DNA of 64,000 bases, taken from Solobacterium sp. (lineage in GTDB: Bacteria; Bacillota_I; Bacilli_A; Erysipelotrichales; Erysipelotrichaceae). This document shows positions 12,434-21,019 of the stretch, piece by piece. The stretch spans positions 1 through 64,000 of the forward strand of contig JAFUFO010000031.1 of assembly GCA_017469885.1 (NCBI GenBank), given 5' to 3'. Position 1 is the stretch's first letter, and each line of letters opens with the position of its first letter. The notes beneath the pieces were generated by a model. It was not told the origin of the DNA and made no database searches. It saw only the letters and a list, made by a program, of their open reading frames with translations. The position numbers and the translations under genes were made by a program.

Positions 12434-12994
12434 CTAAAGCTCTCTCAGCTGTAGTTCTGAGAACGTGCAGTCAAAATAGGAATCGCCCCCGCTGCATGCA
12501 TAAATACCGGCGATCACCGGCTCTTCTCCGGGGGCGAAGCGGAGCCATCTCATATCGGAATACTTTGTACCGCTAAAACTGTACTGAAAGCGCGCATTGC
12601 CGCTCCAGTACAGTACACGCAGATACATCCAGCGGATCCCGCTGCCGATTTCCCGGCAGCTGCGGTCGCCGTAGCCGTCGGAATAAACCGTACAGGCAAG
12701 ATCCAGCGCATCCGCCCGGCATTCCACACCGGACTTTGCCCAGGTCGTGTTGTTTCGCTTGAGCAGAAGACCGCATTCATCTTCGCTTCCGCGGAACAGA
12801 TAATCCATCCGAACCGTGAAGCAGAAGCTTGTCATCGGGTCCAGCAGCATTCCGAATGCATTCGTGCTGTCAAACGAGAGCGAATGAAAACTCGTATACG
12901 GCTCTGTTTCAAGCACAAGCTTTCCGTGGTCGAACATATACATTGACGGCTGCCGCAGCCAATGCAGTGTGGATGGGTCAATCTGCTGAATCAT
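12434..12994 (-). CDS. DUF1349-like concanavalin-fold protein
   Basis: A 186-residue soluble protein without signal peptide. The spacing of aromatic and glycine residues (FCFTVRMDYLF, CGLLLKRNNTTW, WMYLRVLYW, the C-terminal AGIYACSGGDSYFDCTFSEL) fits the DUF1349 beta-sandwich family, which binds carbohydrate-like ligands in characterised relatives. Its function here is unknown. Its start codon overlaps the last base of the phosphatase gene, so it is coupled to the hydrogenase operon, although no functional link is obvious. Confidence 0.65.
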   Translation of the reverse strand: MIQQIDPSTLHWLRQPSMYMFDHGKLVLETEPYTSFHSLSFDSTNAFGMLLDPMTSFCFTVRMDYLFRGSEDECGLLLKRNNTTWAKSGVECRADALDLACTVYSDGYGDRSCREIGSGIRWMYLRVLYWSGNARFQYSFSGTKYSDMRWLRFAPGEEPVIAGIYACSGGDSYFDCTFSELQLREL

Positions 12995-14175
12995 CAGTAC
13001 ATCTCCACGCGGACGATACGGCCGATTGTCCGAAGATTCTCAGCCACTTCCTCGATCAGCGCAATCTTGGCATTCAGACTGATCGGAGAATAGTCGATAT
13101 TTGAATGCGCCGGATTATCACTCAGTCCGACCATAAATGTGATCTCGCTTGAGGCAAGGAATACACGCACCAGACAGGAAGCACCGTCCTGTTCCCTTGA
13201 CAGTTCCAGTTCTTCCTCATACTGGGCATCCTTTGCGGCACGGTCAAGATAGCGGGCCACCTTCTGCAGAGTGAGTACGCCCTCCGTCACCAGATCGATG
13301 CCGTCGATAAACCCTTTCGGCGGAACATCTGCGGTCATATTCAGCAGACTGTCCGTAAGGATCTCCTTTCCGGTGACCCGGGATACGATATTCGATGTTG
13401 TACCGCCGCAGCACACTTTCTTTCCGGTCGCGGAAAGCAGTTTACGCACAACGGTTTCATCATCCTCCGGTTTCGAAGGAGGGCCGACCATAACGCGTGT
13501 TTCAGTGGACGGCATAATCGAAAGACAGCATACCGTGGAGTCATCCCCCGGCTGTCCGCCGTACAGATAATCCACGTTCGTAAGCAGAATCCGTGTCACC
13601 TCACGGGAGTTATCCTGCGGCGTTGTGGAGTTTACCAGGAACTGTTCCACCTCATCATGACCCCAGCCGAAGTTGAGCGTCATTCCGACGCCGGCATGCA
13701 GGACACCGTCCGAGAACGCAATGAAACGATCACCTGGCTGAACCAGCATATTGGTGATATAGATCTTCCGTCCGTTGAGTTCCTCACACTGCCGGTCATG
13801 TTCAAGGATCGCGCCGTTGCGCATGACGACACATGCCGGGTTATCAAACTCTGCGATATACGCTGCGCCGTCGTAGTATATCTGGACAATCGTGAACGTG
13901 GAATATGCCACGCCGCGTTCCTGACATACCGGCAGTGTATCCGCAATGGTTTCCACCGCATCCGACAGCAGCATCCCCGAGAAGATCATTTCACTGAGGA
14001 TCGTACTCGTAAGGGTCGACAGAATATTCGCTTTTACGCCGCTTCCAAGACCATCCGCCAGCACCATGACCATGCAGGTATCACTGCGCCGGATCTGAAC
14101 CCGGTCACCGCAGAGCTCCTCCCCGTAGTGATTCAGCGAACGCCAGTAAGCGTCAATGTAAATCCGTTCAGACAT
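12994..14175 (-). CDS. SpoIIE/PP2C-type serine phosphatase linked to the sensory hydrogenase
   Basis: A 393-residue cytoplasmic phosphatase. Residues 1-220 form the SpoIIE-like PP2C domain: VLADGLGSGVKAN carries the first metal-binding aspartate and glycine, FSDGVLHAG the second, and GDDSTVCCL the third. Residues 230-393 form a second region with no recognised domain. The ATG at 14175 is chosen over one four codons earlier because GAGG lies six bases upstream of it. It overlaps the PAS-containing hydrogenase gene by eight bases, so the two products are probably partners. In other anaerobes group C hydrogenases are often encoded beside protein phosphatases or kinases. The inferred role is to turn a hydrogen or redox signal into protein dephosphorylation. 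Confidence 0.82.
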   Translation of the reverse strand: MSERIYIDAYWRSLNHYGEELCGDRVQIRRSDTCMVMVLADGLGSGVKANILSTLTSTILSEMIFSGMLLSDAVETIADTLPVCQERGVAYSTFTIVQIYYDGAAYIAEFDNPACVVMRNGAILEHDRQCEELNGRKIYITNMLVQPGDRFIAFSDGVLHAGVGMTLNFGWGHDEVEQFLVNSTTPQDNSREVTRILLTNVDYLYGGQPGDDSTVCCLSIMPSTETRVMVGPPSKPEDDETVVRKLLSATGKKVCCGGTTSNIVSRVTGKEILTDSLLNMTADVPPKGFIDGIDLVTEGVLTLQKVARYLDRAAKDAQYEEELELSREQDGASCLVRVFLASSEITFMVGLSDNPAHSNIDYSPISLNAKIALIEEVAENLRTIGRIVRVEMY

Positions 14176-15868
14176 TCTCGTCCTCATCCATGGACCGTTT
14201 CAGGTTTGTGAGCGCCACTTTCGATCGCGCAGTTGTCTCGCCAAGCAGACTGGCAATTTCCTGTACTGTCCGCATCTGTTCATCAATGACTGCCGCTGTG
14301 ACATTCATCGTGCGCTCCCGCATCTCGCGCATCTTCACTTCACGCGCATTCTCGCTTGTGCGGTCCATCAGAATCAGCACATAGAGATCCTGACTTTCAA
14401 CGTGAACGATGGCATGATCGACAAGCAGCTTGTAGTTTTCATAGAAGACACGCATGTATTCCGTCTTCCGGCCGGTCATCCGGATCAGACGTTCCAGCGC
14501 ATCGTCCGGAAGCACAGTGACGATCGGCATTCCGGTGGGATTGACCATATCCAGATTGAGCATCTTGCGTGCCGACGGGTTCATCTCACGGATGTTGAGG
14601 TCCTTATCCAGGACAACAATGCCGTTCGGCGTGTTTTCAATAACGACGTTGGAAAGGGATTCCGCCCGTTCGAGTGCTTCCGGAAGACAGATTCTCGGAT
14701 CCGCTTTTCCGTCAAGCACCGCGATTGCCTTCAGGCGGCAGGTCTCATAGCCGCAGGCACCGCAGTCATGAATCTTATCCTGGGATGTCTTTCCGAGAAG
14801 GATCATTTCCTTCTGAATTTCTTCCTCGGTATGTTTCGGGCGCCAGATATCCTCCGGCTTCCACTCCGCAGAAAGATCGATCGGCAGCGTTCCGCCGGAG
14901 ATCTTCGCGTTCATGTCAACGTTCTCACGAATCACACTCTGTCCGAGCCATTCATTATGTTTGAAATGCGAAAGCAGCGGTCCTCCCATACAAGAGCCAA
15001 TGCAGGAAGACATCTCCGCAAAGTATCCCTTCAGCGTGCCTTCCTTCATTGCCTCAAGTACCTGCTTGATCCGGTCAACACCTTCGACATTGATATATTT
15101 GTAATTCTCATTGTCGTGTTCAATACAGTTGAGAATTCCGCCCGGCGTCGGATACAGCCGTGCGATGGAGCCTTCAAAGGCATTCCAGTCGGAAACTTCA
15201 CCTTCCGTCAGGGTGCCTTCGACCCACTGAATCAGTTCTTCCATACCGATACACGCATCAATAGCACCGGCAAACCGCGCATCACGGATTTCCTTGAATT
15301 TGGCAATGCACGGGGAAAGGAAGACGATCTTCGCATCCGGATATTCCTCTTTGAGCATCCGTCCGTGCGCAATCATCGGCGATACGACCGGCGCCATATA
15401 CTGCGTCAGTTCCCCGTATTCCTTTTCAATCAGCGCATTCACTGCCGGGCAGCAGGTCGTGATGATGTTTTCCATGGTTCCTTCATCGATCAGATTTCGG
15501 AACGCTTTGGTCACAAGTTTTGCGCCTTCCGCTGTTTCCCGAACCGCGGAAAACCCGCGGCCTTCAAGAATCCGCACAAGCGAATCAAACTGCGGCCAGA
15601 CCGCAGTAAAACTCGGCGCAGCGCTGATGATCACCTGTTCGTGGTTATTCAGCCATCCTTTGATCCGGTCAAGATCGGAAATGACCGCTTTTGCGTCATG
15701 CGGGCATACTTTATAGCACTGTCCGCAGAGAATGCATTCGTCTTCGACAATCGTCGGCCGGTTATACAGATATGTCATCGCATTGGTCGGGCAGGCCCGG
15801 ACACAGCGAAGACAGTTGTGGCATTGTCCCTGTTCAAGACGAATGAACTCGTTTCTCGGGTTCATCAT
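14168..15868 (-). CDS. Sensory-type (group C-like) [FeFe] hydrogenase with PAS domain
   Basis: A 566-residue cytoplasmic iron-sulfur protein. Two 4Fe-4S motifs occupy residues 16-55 (CxxCxxCxxxCP twice). The H-cluster signatures follow: TTCCP (137-141), SPCIAK (185-190) and SSCIGSCMGG (cysteines 289 and 293). These differ from the catalytic-type motifs in the way group C enzymes do. A CGxCGxxxC cluster domain lies near 372-400, then a PAS domain near 410-500 and a C-terminal coiled segment. The H-cluster module plus a PAS output and an adjacent PP2C phosphatase point to hydrogen or redox sensing rather than bulk hydrogen production. It overlaps the ferredoxin-like gene upstream by four bases and the phosphatase gene downstream by eight. 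Confidence 0.87.
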   Translation of the reverse strand: MMNPRNEFIRLEQGQCHNCLRCVRACPTNAMTYLYNRPTIVEDECILCGQCYKVCPHDAKAVISDLDRIKGWLNNHEQVIISAAPSFTAVWPQFDSLVRILEGRGFSAVRETAEGAKLVTKAFRNLIDEGTMENIITTCCPAVNALIEKEYGELTQYMAPVVSPMIAHGRMLKEEYPDAKIVFLSPCIAKFKEIRDARFAGAIDACIGMEELIQWVEGTLTEGEVSDWNAFEGSIARLYPTPGGILNCIEHDNENYKYINVEGVDRIKQVLEAMKEGTLKGYFAEMSSCIGSCMGGPLLSHFKHNEWLGQSVIRENVDMNAKISGGTLPIDLSAEWKPEDIWRPKHTEEEIQKEMILLGKTSQDKIHDCGACGYETCRLKAIAVLDGKADPRICLPEALERAESLSNVVIENTPNGIVVLDKDLNIREMNPSARKMLNLDMVNPTGMPIVTVLPDDALERLIRMTGRKTEYMRVFYENYKLLVDHAIVHVESQDLYVLILMDRTSENAREVKMREMRERTMNVTAAVIDEQMRTVQEIASLLGETTARSKVALTNLKRSMDEDENV

Positions 15869-16119
15869 GCGAGGGCAGCGCTGAGTTCACGATCAAGAAT
15901 CTCACGCGCATTCTGGGCAGTTACGCCCTCAATCTGACGGCCGTTGATCCGGATACCGAGTCCGATATGATTCTGGCAGGCCTTCATACAGAAGGAACCC
16001 TTAACCGCAATCTTATCTTCCCAGCCCTTTTCCTTGATGAGAGCGTTCAGATCATTTACTACCTGACTGCTGCCTTTTACATAGCAGGCACTTCCAATGC
16101 AAATCTCAACGTTTACCAT
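15865..16119 (-). CDS. NuoE/HydC-like thioredoxin-fold [2Fe-2S] ferredoxin
   Basis: An 84-residue protein with four cysteines (7, 12, 44, 48) in the CxxxxC...CxxxC pattern of the thioredoxin-like 2Fe-2S family, which includes NuoE and the small subunit of electron-bifurcating hydrogenases. It lacks the N-terminal helical region of full NuoE. It probably carries electrons to or from the two hydrogenases that flank it. A strong AAAGGAG ribosome-binding site precedes the ATG. It overlaps the PAS-hydrogenase gene by four bases. No NuoF-like flavoprotein is present nearby, so NADH coupling is not supported. Confidence 0.85.
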   Translation of the reverse strand: MVNVEICIGSACYVKGSSQVVNDLNALIKEKGWEDKIAVKGSFCMKACQNHIGLGIRINGRQIEGVTAQNAREILDRELSAALA

Positions 16120-16152
16120 AATTATTCTCCTTTGAACTCCTGTAGATGGTAA

Positions 16153-17625
16153 TTATTCCGCGTGTGTTCCGACTTCCATGTCGACATTGTCAAACGAGAA
16201 GATCTCGAGCGACTTCTGAATGGTCTTCTTGTCGGTAGTCATGTTTTCCTTGGCCATGCGTCCCTTTACCTGTACGGCATCCGAAATGGTTCCAGGGCCT
16301 GCAATACAGCCGCCCGGGCAGCACATGCCTTCGAGGATATCGAAGGTGAACTTGCCTGCCTGCATGATCTGGAGCTGCTTTTTGCATTCCATTGCGCCGT
16401 TGGCCATAAAGGCGGTATACGGACCATCATTATGTTCTTTTGCGGCTTCTGCGACAGCCTGGGCAACACCGCCGCTGAATGCGAAGTTACGTCCGAAGAC
16501 AGACGGGTATTCCTCTTCGCTCGCTTCAATCTCTTCCGGATTGATTCCTTTGGAAATCAGCATCGCCGCAAGTTCTTCATAGGTCAGAACATAGTCCACG
16601 ACGCTGTAGTCTTCCATCGCCTCCTGCTTCTTGGCAAGGCACGGTCCGATGAAGACGACACCGGCATCCGGATGGTCACGCTTGATGCGTCTTGCGAGAG
16701 CTTCCATCGGCGTAACGGTTGTGGATTTGTTTTCCTTGTAGAGTTTCGGGAAATGAATCTTCAGCATATTAACGAAGCCCGGGCAGCACGATGTGGTCAT
16801 CGGTGCACCGCTCTTCTTATGCTCTGCCAGTTCCTGGTATTCAAATTCAGCGACCGCATCAGCACCGATTGCGACTTCTTCGCACTTGGTAAAGCCGAGC
16901 ATCTCAACACTCTTCAGCACCTGCGGAATGGTCGCATTTTCAAACTGACCCTGGATGGACGGTGCCACGATGGCGTAGACTTCCGTACCCATCTTGATTG
17001 CCTTGATGACCGGTACAACCCAGGAAACATCCTCGATTGCGCCGAACGGACATGCATTTTCACACTGACCGCAGTTGATGCACCTCTTCTCATCGATGAC
17101 TGCGATATTGTTGGAATCCCAGCTGATTGCCTGAACCGGGCAGTGCGCATAGCACGGACGCTCCGTGACGACGATTGCGCTGTACGGGCAGGCTCTTGCG
17201 CAGGCGCCGCATTCCTTACACTTGGTGTAGTCAATTTCACTGCGGACATTTCCGATGTGAATCGCACCGAACCGGCACGCCGCAAGGCAGCTCTTGGCCA
17301 TGCATTTACGGCAGTTGTCCGTTACACGGATCTTCTTGATCGAACAGCCGTCACAGGCCGCATCGATGACGTGAATGATCTGGCGGGGATTCGGTTCGAT
17401 CTCCTCACGCGCCATCTTGCCCATCGCAAGACGGACGCGCTGACGGAGTACCTCGCGCTCCTTATACACACAGCAGCGGTACCGCGGCCCTTCCAGGGAA
17501 ACAAGATTGCGGGCATATGCCTGAACATCATCTTCCACAACTTCCCCCTTAAAGGCCTGACGGCAGATATTCACGAGAATATCGAATTTGAACTGCCGTG
17601 ATTCATGGGTAAACATATTGGACAT
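16153..17625 (-). CDS. [FeFe] hydrogenase, group B-like, with N-terminal Fe-S clusters
   Basis: A 490-residue cytoplasmic hydrogenase. After about 85 residues of helical N-terminus come cysteine-rich cluster motifs (91-119, 136-146, 158-162, 182-192), including two complete ferredoxin-type 4Fe-4S patterns. The H-cluster motifs are TSCCPGF (278-284; phenylalanine where group A enzymes have tryptophan), GPCLAKKQE (327-335) and EGMCCPGGCIAGPG (432-445). This combination fits the group B monomeric [FeFe] hydrogenases of anaerobic Bacillota. It should exchange electrons with ferredoxin to make or use hydrogen. A GAAGGAG ribosome-binding site fits the ATG. Maturation genes (hydE, hydF, hydG) are not in the window. 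Confidence 0.9.
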   Translation of the reverse strand: MSNMFTHESRQFKFDILVNICRQAFKGEVVEDDVQAYARNLVSLEGPRYRCCVYKEREVLRQRVRLAMGKMAREEIEPNPRQIIHVIDAACDGCSIKKIRVTDNCRKCMAKSCLAACRFGAIHIGNVRSEIDYTKCKECGACARACPYSAIVVTERPCYAHCPVQAISWDSNNIAVIDEKRCINCGQCENACPFGAIEDVSWVVPVIKAIKMGTEVYAIVAPSIQGQFENATIPQVLKSVEMLGFTKCEEVAIGADAVAEFEYQELAEHKKSGAPMTTSCCPGFVNMLKIHFPKLYKENKSTTVTPMEALARRIKRDHPDAGVVFIGPCLAKKQEAMEDYSVVDYVLTYEELAAMLISKGINPEEIEASEEEYPSVFGRNFAFSGGVAQAVAEAAKEHNDGPYTAFMANGAMECKKQLQIMQAGKFTFDILEGMCCPGGCIAGPGTISDAVQVKGRMAKENMTTDKKTIQKSLEIFSFDNVDMEVGTHAE

Positions 17626-17656: not shown

Positions 17657-18232
17657 TTATTCCGGTTTTTCAAGTGTCCGGAAACTGTGTTCGTACTGCA
17701 TTCCGTACTCCAGCTTCCGCATCACCGCATCATCCGTGAGCCGGCGGATGATCAGTCTGGCAAACTCAATGGTGGCACCCATTCCCCTGCCGGTGATGAC
17801 ATTTCCGTCTTCCACCGCAAGTTCCTTCTCATAGATACCGCCGTAGGCGTCACTGGCAAAGTCCGGGAAACTTGTGTAATGCTTTCCGTTGAGTATCCCA
17901 AGATGACCGAGCACAGACGGTGCCGCACAGATGGCACAGGTCAGTTTGCCGCTTTCAAAGTGTGCCTTCAGGGCATTCTTCAGCGGTTCAAACGCGTCCA
18001 GGTTCATCGTGCCGACTTTACCGCCCGGTAGAATCAATACATCATAATCGGAAGGATCGATTTCCTTCCAGGTCTTGTCTGCGAACAGGCGTACACCATG
18101 CGAAGTCTCCACAATCAGATCATCCGTGATCGAGACGGAATCCACGGGGATTCCTGCCCTTCTCAGCATGTCAATTGTGATCAGACCTTCGCAGTCCTCA
18201 AATCCTTTCGCAAGAAAAATCGCGCATCTCAT
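17657..18232 (-). CDS. DJ-1/PfpI family protein (DJ-1 type)
   Basis: A 191-residue cytoplasmic protein with the DJ-1 flavodoxin-like fold. The conserved acidic residue is in GFEDCE (residues 10-15). The nucleophile-elbow cysteine is Cys102 in ICAAPSVLG, and LILPGG precedes it. Family members act as thiol-protective, glyoxalase-like or deglycase-like enzymes; the activity here is not predictable. It lies 31 bases upstream of the [FeFe] hydrogenase gene without a terminator between, so it may lead the hydrogenase operon and help protect it from oxidative damage (inference). Confidence 0.87.
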   Translation of the reverse strand: MRCAIFLAKGFEDCEGLITIDMLRRAGIPVDSVSITDDLIVETSHGVRLFADKTWKEIDPSDYDVLILPGGKVGTMNLDAFEPLKNALKAHFESGKLTCAICAAPSVLGHLGILNGKHYTSFPDFASDAYGGIYEKELAVEDGNVITGRGMGATIEFARLIIRRLTDDAVMRKLEYGMQYEHSFRTLEKPE

Positions 18233-18327: not shown

Positions 18328-18359
18328 AAAAAAAGAGACCCGCATTACCTGCGGATCTC
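18328..18359 (-). terminator. Terminator of the 18.3-18.8 kb structured RNA
   Basis: On the minus strand GAGATCCGCA, loop GGTAA, TGCGGGTCTC form a 10-bp stem with one wobble pair, followed by seven T. No protein gene precedes it, so it ends an independent RNA. The plus strand lacks a T run here. Confidence 0.85.
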
Positions 18360-18790
18360 GTGCTTCTTGTTCTGTCTGCGTTCAGGTGCGGCCCTTGTGT
18401 GTCCTTCGTCAACTTTGAACCACATTTGAATCTCGGTGATAAGGAGGTATTATTCAAAATGATCTGCTGTGTTCCGTCACATTCCAGGAAACTAAATTCG
18501 TGCTTTATCAGCGAATCCACCTTCGAAATTCCTGCCCGGACGGATCGGCACCGTCCTCAAGCATCCTTTCCGCAAGGTGTTCGGAACAACACGTTGTGTG
18601 CTCGTCGCTGGATCACTTGTACCGCATTGCAGACGTATTGGTTTGTTAACGCAGGCTCGTCTCGTTCAGACGGCTGCCTCCATGAATTCCCGGTCCCATG
18701 TATTACCTCCCGGATCATTATGTTTCGTAAATCCTTCTTCACATTCTTGATAACCGATAATGCGGGTTTTTGAAACCCCTTACATTCTCG
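18328..18790 (-). ncRNA. Candidate large structured non-coding RNA (about 440-460 nt)
   Basis: No credible protein is encoded between the typA terminator and this RNA's own terminator, yet the minus strand is dense with helices. The 5' segment ACCCGCATTA (18767-18758) is a perfect 10-bp complement of TAATGCGGGT (18347-18338) at the 3' end. Internal hairpins include CGTCT/AGACG (18672-18658) nested in AGGC/GCCT, GGACGG/CCGTCC (18556-18538), CAGGAA/TTCCTG (18534-18485) enclosing ATTCG/CGAAT, and TTTGAAT/ATTCAAA (18458-18425). The last hairpin's 20-base loop contains TACCTCC, which can pair with GGAGGTA at 18710-18704 as a pseudoknot. The conserved sequence cores of RNase P RNA, tmRNA, SRP RNA and 6S RNA were not seen. 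The 5' end is uncertain because no good minus-strand promoter is visible. Confidence 0.6.
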
Positions 18791-18807
18791 TTGAAATATG
18801 CTATAAT
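18780..18807 (+). promoter_or_regulatory. Plus-strand extended -10 promoter facing the typA terminator
   Basis: TTACAT, 16-base spacer, TATAAT preceded by TG (TGCTATAAT). Transcription would start near 18814 and meet a terminator at once. It may be fortuitous in this AT-rich stretch. Confidence 0.4.
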
Positions 18808-18815
18808 GATTAAGT

Positions 18816-18837
18816 GGGCAAAATGACGCCCTTTTTT
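18816..18837 (+). terminator. Plus-strand hairpin with T6 tail
   Basis: GGGC (18816-18819), loop AAAATGAC, GCCC (18828-18831), then six T. The stem is only 4 bp. It lies directly downstream of the plus-strand promoter at 18780-18807. Confidence 0.4.
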
Positions 18838-18874: not shown

Positions 18875-20719
18875 TCAGTCTGCGTCTTCGTCTTCCAGCT
18901 TGCCAAGCTCACGTGCGTGGCGTCTGCGGTCGATAATCGTCAGATACTTCTTGCGCACCCGGATATCATTCGGGGTAATTTCGACAAGCTCATCATCGTT
19001 GATGAACTCAATCGCCTGTTCCAGCGTAAGGATACGCGGCGGAACCAGTTTCATCGCCTCATCGTTGCCGGTGGAACGTACCGCGGTCATCTTCTTGTTT
19101 TTGATCGGATTGACCGTCATGTCACGGTTCTTTGCGGAAACACCGATGATCATTCCTTCATAGACCGGGGTCTGCGCACCGATAAACAGCTGACCGCGCT
19201 CCTGGATGTTCCAGAGCGCATAGGTCATGGCGCCGCCGGTTTCGGTCGAAATCAGCGCACCGTTCTCACGCTGCGGGATGTCACCCTTCCACGGCTCATA
19301 GCCATACAGACGCTGAACCATCGTTCCTTCACCGTGTGTCGTGTTGATAAAGTCGCTGCGGTAACCGATGAGACCGCGGGTCGGTACGGTATAGGTGATC
19401 CGGGTATAGGTTCCCTCATCTTCCATATTCTGTAACATACCCTTACGGATATTCAGGGCGGAGATAACCGTGCCGCTGTATTCATTCGGGACATCACAGA
19501 CGACTTCCTCGATCGGTTCACAGGTGACGCCGTCGATCTTCTTCAGAATGACTTCCGGTCTTGATACGGCGACTTCAAAGCCTTCACGGCGCATCTGTTC
19601 CAGAAGGATCGTAAGATGCAGCTCTCCGCGGCCGCTGACCTTGAAGGTATCGGTGGAATCTGTTTCCTCTACCTTGAGACCGACATTGACCTCAAGTTCC
19701 TTTTCAAGACGCTCGCGGATGTTGCGGGAGGTAACGTACTTGCCGACCTGTCCGGCAAACGGACTGTCGTTGACCATGAAGTTCATGGAAAGTGTCGGCT
19801 CTTCGATCTTGATGATCGGCATCGGATCCGGTGCCCCTTCCGGGCAGAGCGTATCACCGATGGAGATATCGGGAATACCGGAAATCATGACGATTTCACC
19901 GCACTGTGCTTCGGGAACCGCAACGCGGCTGAGTCCCTTATACACAAAGATCTGGTTTGTCTTTCCCTTTCCGCTCTTGCCTGCCTTGTTACAGACATCA
20001 TAGGTGGTCGCTTCCTTCAGCGTACCGGAGTAGATACGGCCGATACCGAGACGGCCGATATAGTCGTCGTATGCAAGTGCACATACCTGCATCTGAACAT
20101 TTTCTTCCATCAGGTTCGGATATGCCTGGGCATGATGGATGATCGTTTCAAACAGCGGTGTGATGTCTTCGTTGGTATCCGCATTCCAGTCATAGCGGAC
20201 AATTCCCTGCCGGGCGACGCCATAGAGAATCGGGAAGTCCAGCTGATCATCTGCCGCATTGAGATCAAGGAAGAGATCATAAACTTCATCGATGACTTCA
20301 TCGGCACGCTGATCCGGCTTGTCCATCTTGTTTATGAGAAGGATCGGACGAAGACCGATTTCAAGGCTCTTCTGAAGAACAAACCGTGTCTGCGGCATCG
20401 GGCCTTCACTGGAGTCAACCAGAAGAATAACCGTATCAACTGTCTTGATAATACGTTCTACTTCCGAGGAGAAGTCCGCGTGACCCGGAGTGTCCACGAT
20501 ATTAATTTTATAATCCTTATAGGTTACCGAGCAGTTCTTGGAATAGATCGTAATTCCGCGCTCCCGTTCCAGGGCATTGGAATCCATGACACAGTCCACG
20601 ACTTTCTCGTTGTCCTTGAACACATGGCTCTGCTTGAGAAACGCATCTACCAGTGTTGATTTACCTGCATCGACGTGTGCGATGACCGCTATATTAATAA
20701 TCTTCTGATAATCCATCAT
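18875..20719 (-). CDS. typA: Translational GTPase TypA/BipA
   Basis: A 614-residue ribosome-binding GTPase of the EF-G family that assists 50S assembly and stress or cold adaptation. The GTPase motifs are AHVDAGKSTL (P-loop), a switch segment with RERGITI, DTPGHADF (G3) and NKMD (G4). EF-G-like domains II, III and V and the TypA-specific C-terminal domain follow, with no EF-G domain IV. Length is typical. The start has two adjacent ATG codons; AAGGA just upstream fits either. It is a single gene with a strong promoter (TTGTCA-17-TATAAT) and its own terminator. Confidence 0.96.
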   Translation of the reverse strand: MMDYQKIINIAVIAHVDAGKSTLVDAFLKQSHVFKDNEKVVDCVMDSNALERERGITIYSKNCSVTYKDYKINIVDTPGHADFSSEVERIIKTVDTVILLVDSSEGPMPQTRFVLQKSLEIGLRPILLINKMDKPDQRADEVIDEVYDLFLDLNAADDQLDFPILYGVARQGIVRYDWNADTNEDITPLFETIIHHAQAYPNLMEENVQMQVCALAYDDYIGRLGIGRIYSGTLKEATTYDVCNKAGKSGKGKTNQIFVYKGLSRVAVPEAQCGEIVMISGIPDISIGDTLCPEGAPDPMPIIKIEEPTLSMNFMVNDSPFAGQVGKYVTSRNIRERLEKELEVNVGLKVEETDSTDTFKVSGRGELHLTILLEQMRREGFEVAVSRPEVILKKIDGVTCEPIEEVVCDVPNEYSGTVISALNIRKGMLQNMEDEGTYTRITYTVPTRGLIGYRSDFINTTHGEGTMVQRLYGYEPWKGDIPQRENGALISTETGGAMTYALWNIQERGQLFIGAQTPVYEGMIIGVSAKNRDMTVNPIKNKKMTAVRSTGNDEAMKLVPPRILTLEQAIEFINDDELVEITPNDIRVRKKYLTIIDRRRHARELGKLEDEDAD

Positions 20720-20930: not shown

Positions 20931-20938
20931 CAACTCAG

Positions 20939-21019
20939 TGCACCAGACAGGACTTGAACCTGCACGAATCTCTTCATACGCCCCTCAAGCGTACGTGTCT
21001 GCCATTCCACCACTGGTGC
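20939..21019 (-). tRNA. tRNA-Leu (anticodon GAG)
   Basis: The acceptor stem is GCACCAG (21019-21013) paired with CTGGTGC (20946-20940), with discriminator A at 20939. The anticodon stem TACGC/GCGTA surrounds the loop TTGAGGG, giving anticodon GAG, which reads CUU and CUC. A long variable arm (class II) fits leucine. The T arm has GGTTCAAGTCC. The terminal CCA is not encoded. It has its own promoter and terminator. Confidence 0.93.

Follow-up and report, generated by a model that had tools for sequence, protein, structure and literature searches.

A conserved structured RNA with a tiny open reading frame and a back-to-back promoter module in Solobacterium and related Erysipelotrichaceae

Locus and transcript

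The window analysed here is the whole 64,000-nt stretch of Solobacterium sp. contig JAFUFO010000031.1. Within it, the region 18328-18790 is flanked by typA (18875-20719, minus strand), whose product is identified as TypA/BipA from Pfam, and by a DJ-1/PfpI gene (17657-18232, minus strand). A tRNA-Leu (GAG) is found just upstream of typA at 20938-21019 (minus strand). Downstream of the DJ-1 gene, positions 12994-17625 (minus strand) encode two Fe-only hydrogenase-like proteins, one of which has a PAS domain, together with a small thioredoxin-like ferredoxin and a SpoIIE-type phosphatase; this cluster looks like a hydrogenase-based sensing unit.

The predicted RNA runs on the minus strand from about 18741 to 18328, an extent that is taken from its homologues, with the 5′ end placed from the promoter. 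It ends in an intrinsic terminator (18328-18359) that was already recognised in the initial annotation and is conserved among homologues; the 10-bp stem GAGATCCGCA/TGCGGGTCTC (18359-18335) is followed by a run of seven T that reaches 18328. The single-sequence folding energy of the minus strand is unremarkable (z = -1.6), thus relatives are needed to settle the structure and the proof is a comparative one. The plus strand was also considered as the RNA and was rejected, as its folding z is -0.3 and the terminator, the ORF and the homologues all favour the minus strand. Two longer ORFs in the region (137 aa on the plus strand and 105 aa on the minus strand) were set aside as genes because homologues display many indels there, with the tiny ORF described below being kept.

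The comparison with Rfam models that the initial annotation proposed was made with Rfam 15, which includes ROOL, GOLLD, OLE, HEARO and raiA. Neither the region nor its relatives match at the gathering score, and a permissive scan of both reveals nothing near that score. The region does not match RF00011 (RNase P RNA type B) or RF00013 (6S RNA); RNase P is encoded at C7:10808-11152 in this genome, and the 6S candidate is likewise found elsewhere, at C39:65112-65271. No tmRNA is detected in the window by ARAGORN or by the Rfam scan, and unlike the tmRNA tag ORF, which is without a Shine-Dalgarno sequence, the tiny ORF has both a Shine-Dalgarno sequence and an AUG. Searches of the open-access literature yielded no description of such an RNA. 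A survey of non-coding RNAs in 50 genomes names the Erysipelotrichaceae only for a different motif (PMC11109978).

Homologues and distribution

In a blastn search of 70 genomes of the genus, the region is found at 93% (G014) and 79% (G063), at 68-87% in G030, G027, G066, G026, G040 and G022, and as shorter pieces. Most of these homologues are downstream of typA and in the same direction, the exceptions being G040, G038 and G048. Their alignment shows near-identical islands within otherwise divergent DNA. A covariance model (R1), built on the stretch from promoter to ORF, widened the set to about 30 species of an Erysipelotrichaceae genus that is Solobacterium/Lactimicrobium-like. In these species the RNA (about 18741-18328 in the window) is conserved and frequently adjoins typA; other genomes of the genus are without a match in the R1 search. 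Homologues occupy several genomic places. Members of the G016 group are shorter, with the 5′ part kept and a terminator within about 280 nt, and some members are without the middle region. Two pattern matches outside the group (L085 and L087) are inside coding sequence and were dismissed as chance. A phage or plasmid origin was considered and rejected, there being no DNA match in phage or plasmid collections.

Given these homologues, the covariation described below and the absence of a match in Rfam, the RNA is on comparative grounds a previously undescribed structured RNA family. A chance fold or a decayed gene would agree with the modest single-sequence energy, but conservation, covariation, coding selection and the conserved promoter and terminator all speak against it, and this explanation is exceedingly improbable.

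The tiny open reading frame

The initial annotation saw no plausible gene in the region. A conserved tiny ORF is nevertheless present at 18646-18699 (minus strand), with the translated sequence MGPGIHGGSRLNETSLR followed by a stop codon, and it is preceded by a Shine-Dalgarno sequence GGGAGG (18706-18711, minus strand) that is invariant in close homologues. The alignment displays a conserved M-x-PGI core. Members of the family have a Shine-Dalgarno sequence and an AUG that opens an ORF of 7-17 codons (mostly 7-13 aa), nearly always with the core P-G-I; MGPGISGGSAI, MRSPGISGGSAV, MKPGIYGGRS, MRRPGISSRRAMA and MKGPGIS are examples of the translated sequences. Pairwise differences in the PGI codons are synonymous in 263 cases and non-synonymous in 43, a synonymous fraction of 0.86 compared with 0.26 and 0.14 in the two other frames, and 299 of the 364 nucleotide differences are at third positions. 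Judged by this test, the tiny ORF is under coding selection. A short coding-selected ORF within a terminated, structured RNA is what marks a dual-function (coding) small RNA, and such an ORF is found here.

The 3′ part of the ORF forms a hairpin, GCAG...CUGC (18651-18677, minus strand), which was recognised by comparison of relatives. In relatives it encloses the stop codon, and the inner pairs vary between species yet still pair; the window copy still folds, and its stop codon is just after the hairpin. One RNA (L143) carries two PGI-type ORF units.

Should the peptide itself (MGPGI... or, in the second class described below, MKKVLLEY...) be the product, acting inside the cell or as a leaderless signal, the RNA body would only stabilise and gate its mRNA. 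Selection on the amino acid sequence is in keeping with such a micropeptide gene, and tandem copies would raise the dose of one peptide. On the other side, conservation and covariation of the RNA body extend far past the ORF, and the peptide tail is highly variable, shrinking to MKGPGIS and MKGPGIR. In the window copy the tail is frameshifted by the loss of 2 nt relative to MGPGIHGGRAV of the sister species, which counts against a need for an exact tail. Nor was a transporter, receptor or protease seen beside the copies inspected. A micropeptide gene is thus a rather unlikely explanation, and conservation of the body suggests a function at the RNA level in addition to the peptide.

Helices of the RNA body

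Two strands of an internal loop, GUGAUCCAGC (18607-18616, minus strand) and GACGAAGGACAC... (18393-18410, minus strand), are conserved among members. In the window they are bordered by the 5′ arm (GUCUGC, UGCGG; 18622-18634, minus strand) and the 3′ arm (CCGCA, GCAGAC; 18374-18391, minus strand) of a long helix. Across ten members, mutually pairing arms border GUGRUCCAGC and GACGAAGGACAC; the arm sequences differ by species, e.g., GUCUGC/GCAGAC, AUCUGUUUCC/GGAAACAGAU and GUCUGUUCUUC/GAAGAACGGAC. To avoid hand-picked helix registers, each arm was cut at a fixed distance from its motif and the pairing was assessed by permutation. The mean pairing energy is -17.7 kcal/mol for own arms versus -11.8 kcal/mol when arms are exchanged among species. 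Not one of 20000 permutations is as good (p<5e-5), with p = 0.89 for a control segment; these and the other permutation p-values given here remove kinship by descent among the sequences only in part. By this test, the long helix around the conserved internal loop covaries.

The conserved internal loop and long helix could also belong to a trans-acting stationary-phase RNA, in which the body (GUGRUCCAGC/GACGAAGGACAC) has an mRNA, an rRNA or a protein as its target and translating the ORF does no more than tune RNA stability. The promoter box that the family has in common with 6S RNA, itself a pure RNA regulator, fits this explanation as well. However, coding selection on the ORF and tandem ORF units would not be expected of such an RNA, and there are members without the middle region; the explanation is considered unlikely.

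A second hairpin, at 18425-18459 (minus strand), displays an anti-Shine-Dalgarno sequence, AUACCUCC (18450-18443), in its loop. The initial annotation had drawn this hairpin as TTTGAAT/ATTCAAA (18431-18452), and covariation of its stem is supported in 7 species (exact permutation p = 0.0004). Thus the covariation among homologues that was named there as a check is found both in this stem and in the long helix. A pseudoknot with 18704-18710 had also been put forward. The 7-base match behind it is real, but it is better read as occlusion of the Shine-Dalgarno sequence by an anti-Shine-Dalgarno loop, as AUACCUCC pairs with the Shine-Dalgarno sequence GGGAGGUA in 6 of 7 close species. The anti-Shine-Dalgarno loop is limited to the clade of the window and is lost in G066, where the pairing is not found. 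Pairing of the loop with the Shine-Dalgarno sequence would occlude the ribosome-binding site, and thereby likely switches translation of the tiny ORF.

The RNA could also be a leader or attenuator of the downstream gene, in which case the tiny ORF would encode a leader peptide, and established attenuators do have leader peptides of similar size with anti-Shine-Dalgarno sequences. However, a strong terminator ends the RNA, and the gene that follows varies by species (DJ-1, membrane proteins or solute-binding proteins). Because the next gene changes between species the leader explanation is rejected as very improbable.

The end-closing helix of the initial annotation (18767-18758 with 18347-18338), from which a likeness to ROOL, GOLLD, OLE or RNase P had been drawn, does not hold. 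It is strong only in the window species and the 93% sister and fails in 8 of ten homologues, and its 5′ strand is situated between the predicted -35 and -10 boxes, and should therefore be absent from the transcript. The likeness goes with the helix.

The back-to-back promoter module

Members of the family are preceded by two promoters placed back to back with adjacent -35 boxes. In the window the inward promoter has a -35 box GTTTCA (18771-18776, minus strand), for which most relatives display an AGACTG box, and, after a 17-nt spacer, a -10 box TTATCA (18748-18753, minus strand), from which a start near 18741 is predicted. The outward promoter is conserved (18779-18807, plus strand), with a -35 box CTTACA (18779-18784) and an extended -10 sequence TGCTATAAT ending at 18807. 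It is predicted to yield a short RNA, GUGGGCAAAAUGACGCCCUUUUUU (18814-18837, plus strand), that runs at once into its own terminator. An intrinsic terminator is found within about 30 nt on the outward arm in 56 of 78 modules, compared with 1.0 expected from shuffles, and the predicted outward RNA mostly begins with GUUGGGG or similar. The adjacent inward and outward promoters probably cannot both fire. Nucleotide sensing was considered on account of the G-rich outward and A-rich inward starts and was set aside, since the pattern is not clean across all members.

A sequence-only model of the promoter module (R2) was trained solely on promoters of tiny-ORF RNAs. At the level of the order it matches 234 of 316 genomes at E<=0.01, many of them weakly, and among 394 sampled genomes of the class it matches 21 at E<=1e-5; the E-values of both R1 and R2 are rough because the models were calibrated briefly. 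A wide distribution beyond the family was rejected, as 17 of these 21 genomes are inside the family and the matches in the other 4 are weak. In a specificity control of 88 kb of other loci, all R2 matches with E < 0.005 are on known modules. The window copy has GTAAGGGGTTTC in place of the AAAGACTG of most members and scores 46 bits. Together with the frameshifted ORF tail, this substitution makes co-regulation weakest for the window copy.

Further tiny-ORF RNAs under the same module

Weak R1 matches proved to be a second RNA class that has the same promoter module and another tiny ORF, MKKVLLEY or MKEVLLEYN. The genome of the window carries a copy outside the window, matched at C41:24364-24445; its locus (L140, G000:C41:24364-24481) includes a terminator and adjoins an aminopeptidase P-like gene. 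Across genera the octapeptide consensus is MK[KE][VI]L[LK][EN][YFI]. For the MKxVLL subset, the in-frame synonymous fraction is 0.73, versus 0.19 and 0.11 off frame, and a column-shuffle null has a mean of 0.21 and a maximum of 0.45. Two or three units of Shine-Dalgarno sequence, ORF and hairpin are found per RNA in L186, L192, L216 and L217. The ORF is followed by a motif, GACCNAUGGACA, that resembles GACGAAGGACAC of the window class, a homology judged by eye only.

RNAs with tiny ORFs of the type MTPT... or MEPT... are found under the same module in genus g11 (L193, L209) and genus g36 (L125, L127, L128, L207). Those of g11 face the 3′ end of typA convergently; typA is thus a neighbour again, though in a different orientation. 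At seven further loci (L194, L201, L205, L206, L208, L210 and L214) a GACCCAUGGACAA-like sequence is situated almost directly after the module, without an MK ORF; these are a possible third RNA class. A weak module match is also found just upstream of an L21 leader (RF00559) and L21 gene (L297, G003:C1:1340072).

Sharing of the module with hpf and 6S RNA

An R2 match is present directly before the long HPF gene at L200. Matches directly upstream of hpf at E < 1e-3 are found at 13 of 30 and 8 of 20 loci (21 of 50 in total), and these modules show the outward arm as well. Neither of the two hpf-family genes of the window genome (C30:6894-7172 and C39:97153-97428) has the module. The third R2 match in that genome, at C39:65268-65330, is the promoter of the 6S candidate, which is divergent and scores 41.5 bits, just under the gathering score. 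It should be noted that many 6S genes of the genus score below the Rfam gathering cut-off. In G003 and G089, 6S is again among the few R2 matches, and 7 of 20 6S promoters match R2 at E < 1e-3. The 6S promoters of the genus have TGTCAAGACTGT in common, upstream of the -10 box.

When growth stops, 6S RNA idles RNA polymerase and HPF idles ribosomes as dimers. Sharing of the promoter module with 6S and hpf, the mark of a growth-arrest regulon, is found for the family; the window copy is without the AGACTG box. Because the promoter design is rare and common to 6S and HPF genes, the tiny-ORF RNAs are by association probably members of a growth-arrest programme.

Proposed role

Conservation of the RNA, selection on the ORF, the helices and the sharing of the promoter are established by comparison of sequences. 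Four features suggest that the partner is the ribosome: a strong Shine-Dalgarno sequence, a very short ORF with a hairpin at its end, the tandem copies, and the loop that carries an anti-Shine-Dalgarno sequence. Because these features join the promoter association with 6S and hpf, a translated, structured RNA of the growth-arrest regulon that engages ribosomes, one of a set of tiny-ORF RNAs spread across the Erysipelotrichaceae, is favoured, at about even chances. Action on ribosomes, taken alone, is a tentative proposal.

When growth stops, the inward promoter would win over the outward one, by a putative competition and a putative induction at growth arrest, and the product of the outward promoter would be no more than a dead-end transcript of about 30 nt. 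Ribosomes would load at the strong Shine-Dalgarno sequence and translate 7-13 codons into the hairpin that covers the stop codon, where they may be held or metered. In the clade of the window, the loop of the distal hairpin could cover the Shine-Dalgarno sequence and shut off loading. In the most specific form of the proposal, the Erysipelotrichaceae would have a class of ribosome-parking RNAs, in which one to three units of Shine-Dalgarno sequence, tiny ORF and hairpin hold ribosomes in arrest, under competing promoters and with co-transcription with 6S and HPF; this full form is speculative and on balance unlikely.

The initial annotation had suggested an abundant housekeeping or accessory RNA, perhaps of a new family. 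The new family stands. However, that annotation missed the tiny ORF, the second RNA class and the divergent promoter module, which together suggest an RNA linked to growth arrest and to ribosomes, not a generic housekeeping one. If this is true, growth arrest has a further RNA arm beside 6S, which acts on RNA polymerase, and HPF, which acts through ribosome dimers, and translated structured RNAs are directed at, or driven through, the ribosome. It is a testable hypothesis for an orphan RNA family across a common gut lineage. Mechanism aside, the RNA family is new and its tiny ORFs are much shorter than the length limits that gene finders usually apply, selection is seen on peptides of 7-13 residues, and the promoter design is unusual in that two adjacent promoters are probably mutually exclusive in firing.

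Comparison with known systems

ROOL, GOLLD, OLE and raiA are, like the RNA described here, large structured orphan RNAs. The present RNA differs in that it has no covariance-model match to them, an end-closing helix is not conserved and a putatively translated tiny ORF is present. With 6S RNA (RF00013) it has the inward promoter box in common within the same genomes; sequence and fold are different, and 6S is a separate gene of the same genome. The very short ORF, the strong Shine-Dalgarno sequence and hairpins that cover or expose it are similar to those of leader-peptide attenuators and arrest peptides such as the Erm leaders and TnaC. However, here the transcript has no regulated gene and has its own terminator, and relatives carry tandem ORFs. 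To our knowledge, no RNA described so far has all of the following together: a tiny ORF whose stop codon is enclosed by a hairpin, tandem units, a promoter in common with 6S and hpf, and a divergent RNA that is a dead end.

Small RNAs that also code are an established kind; what appears new is the system, for which the mechanism given above is a proposal. The closest comparison is with the dual-function small RNAs RNAIII/hld, SR1/SR1P and SgrS/SgrT, which likewise have a structured RNA, an ORF for a short peptide and an intrinsic terminator. Their ORFs are tens of residues long, whereas those described here have 7-13 codons and a stop codon inside a hairpin, form tandem units in relatives, and are preceded by a promoter that 6S and hpf also have.
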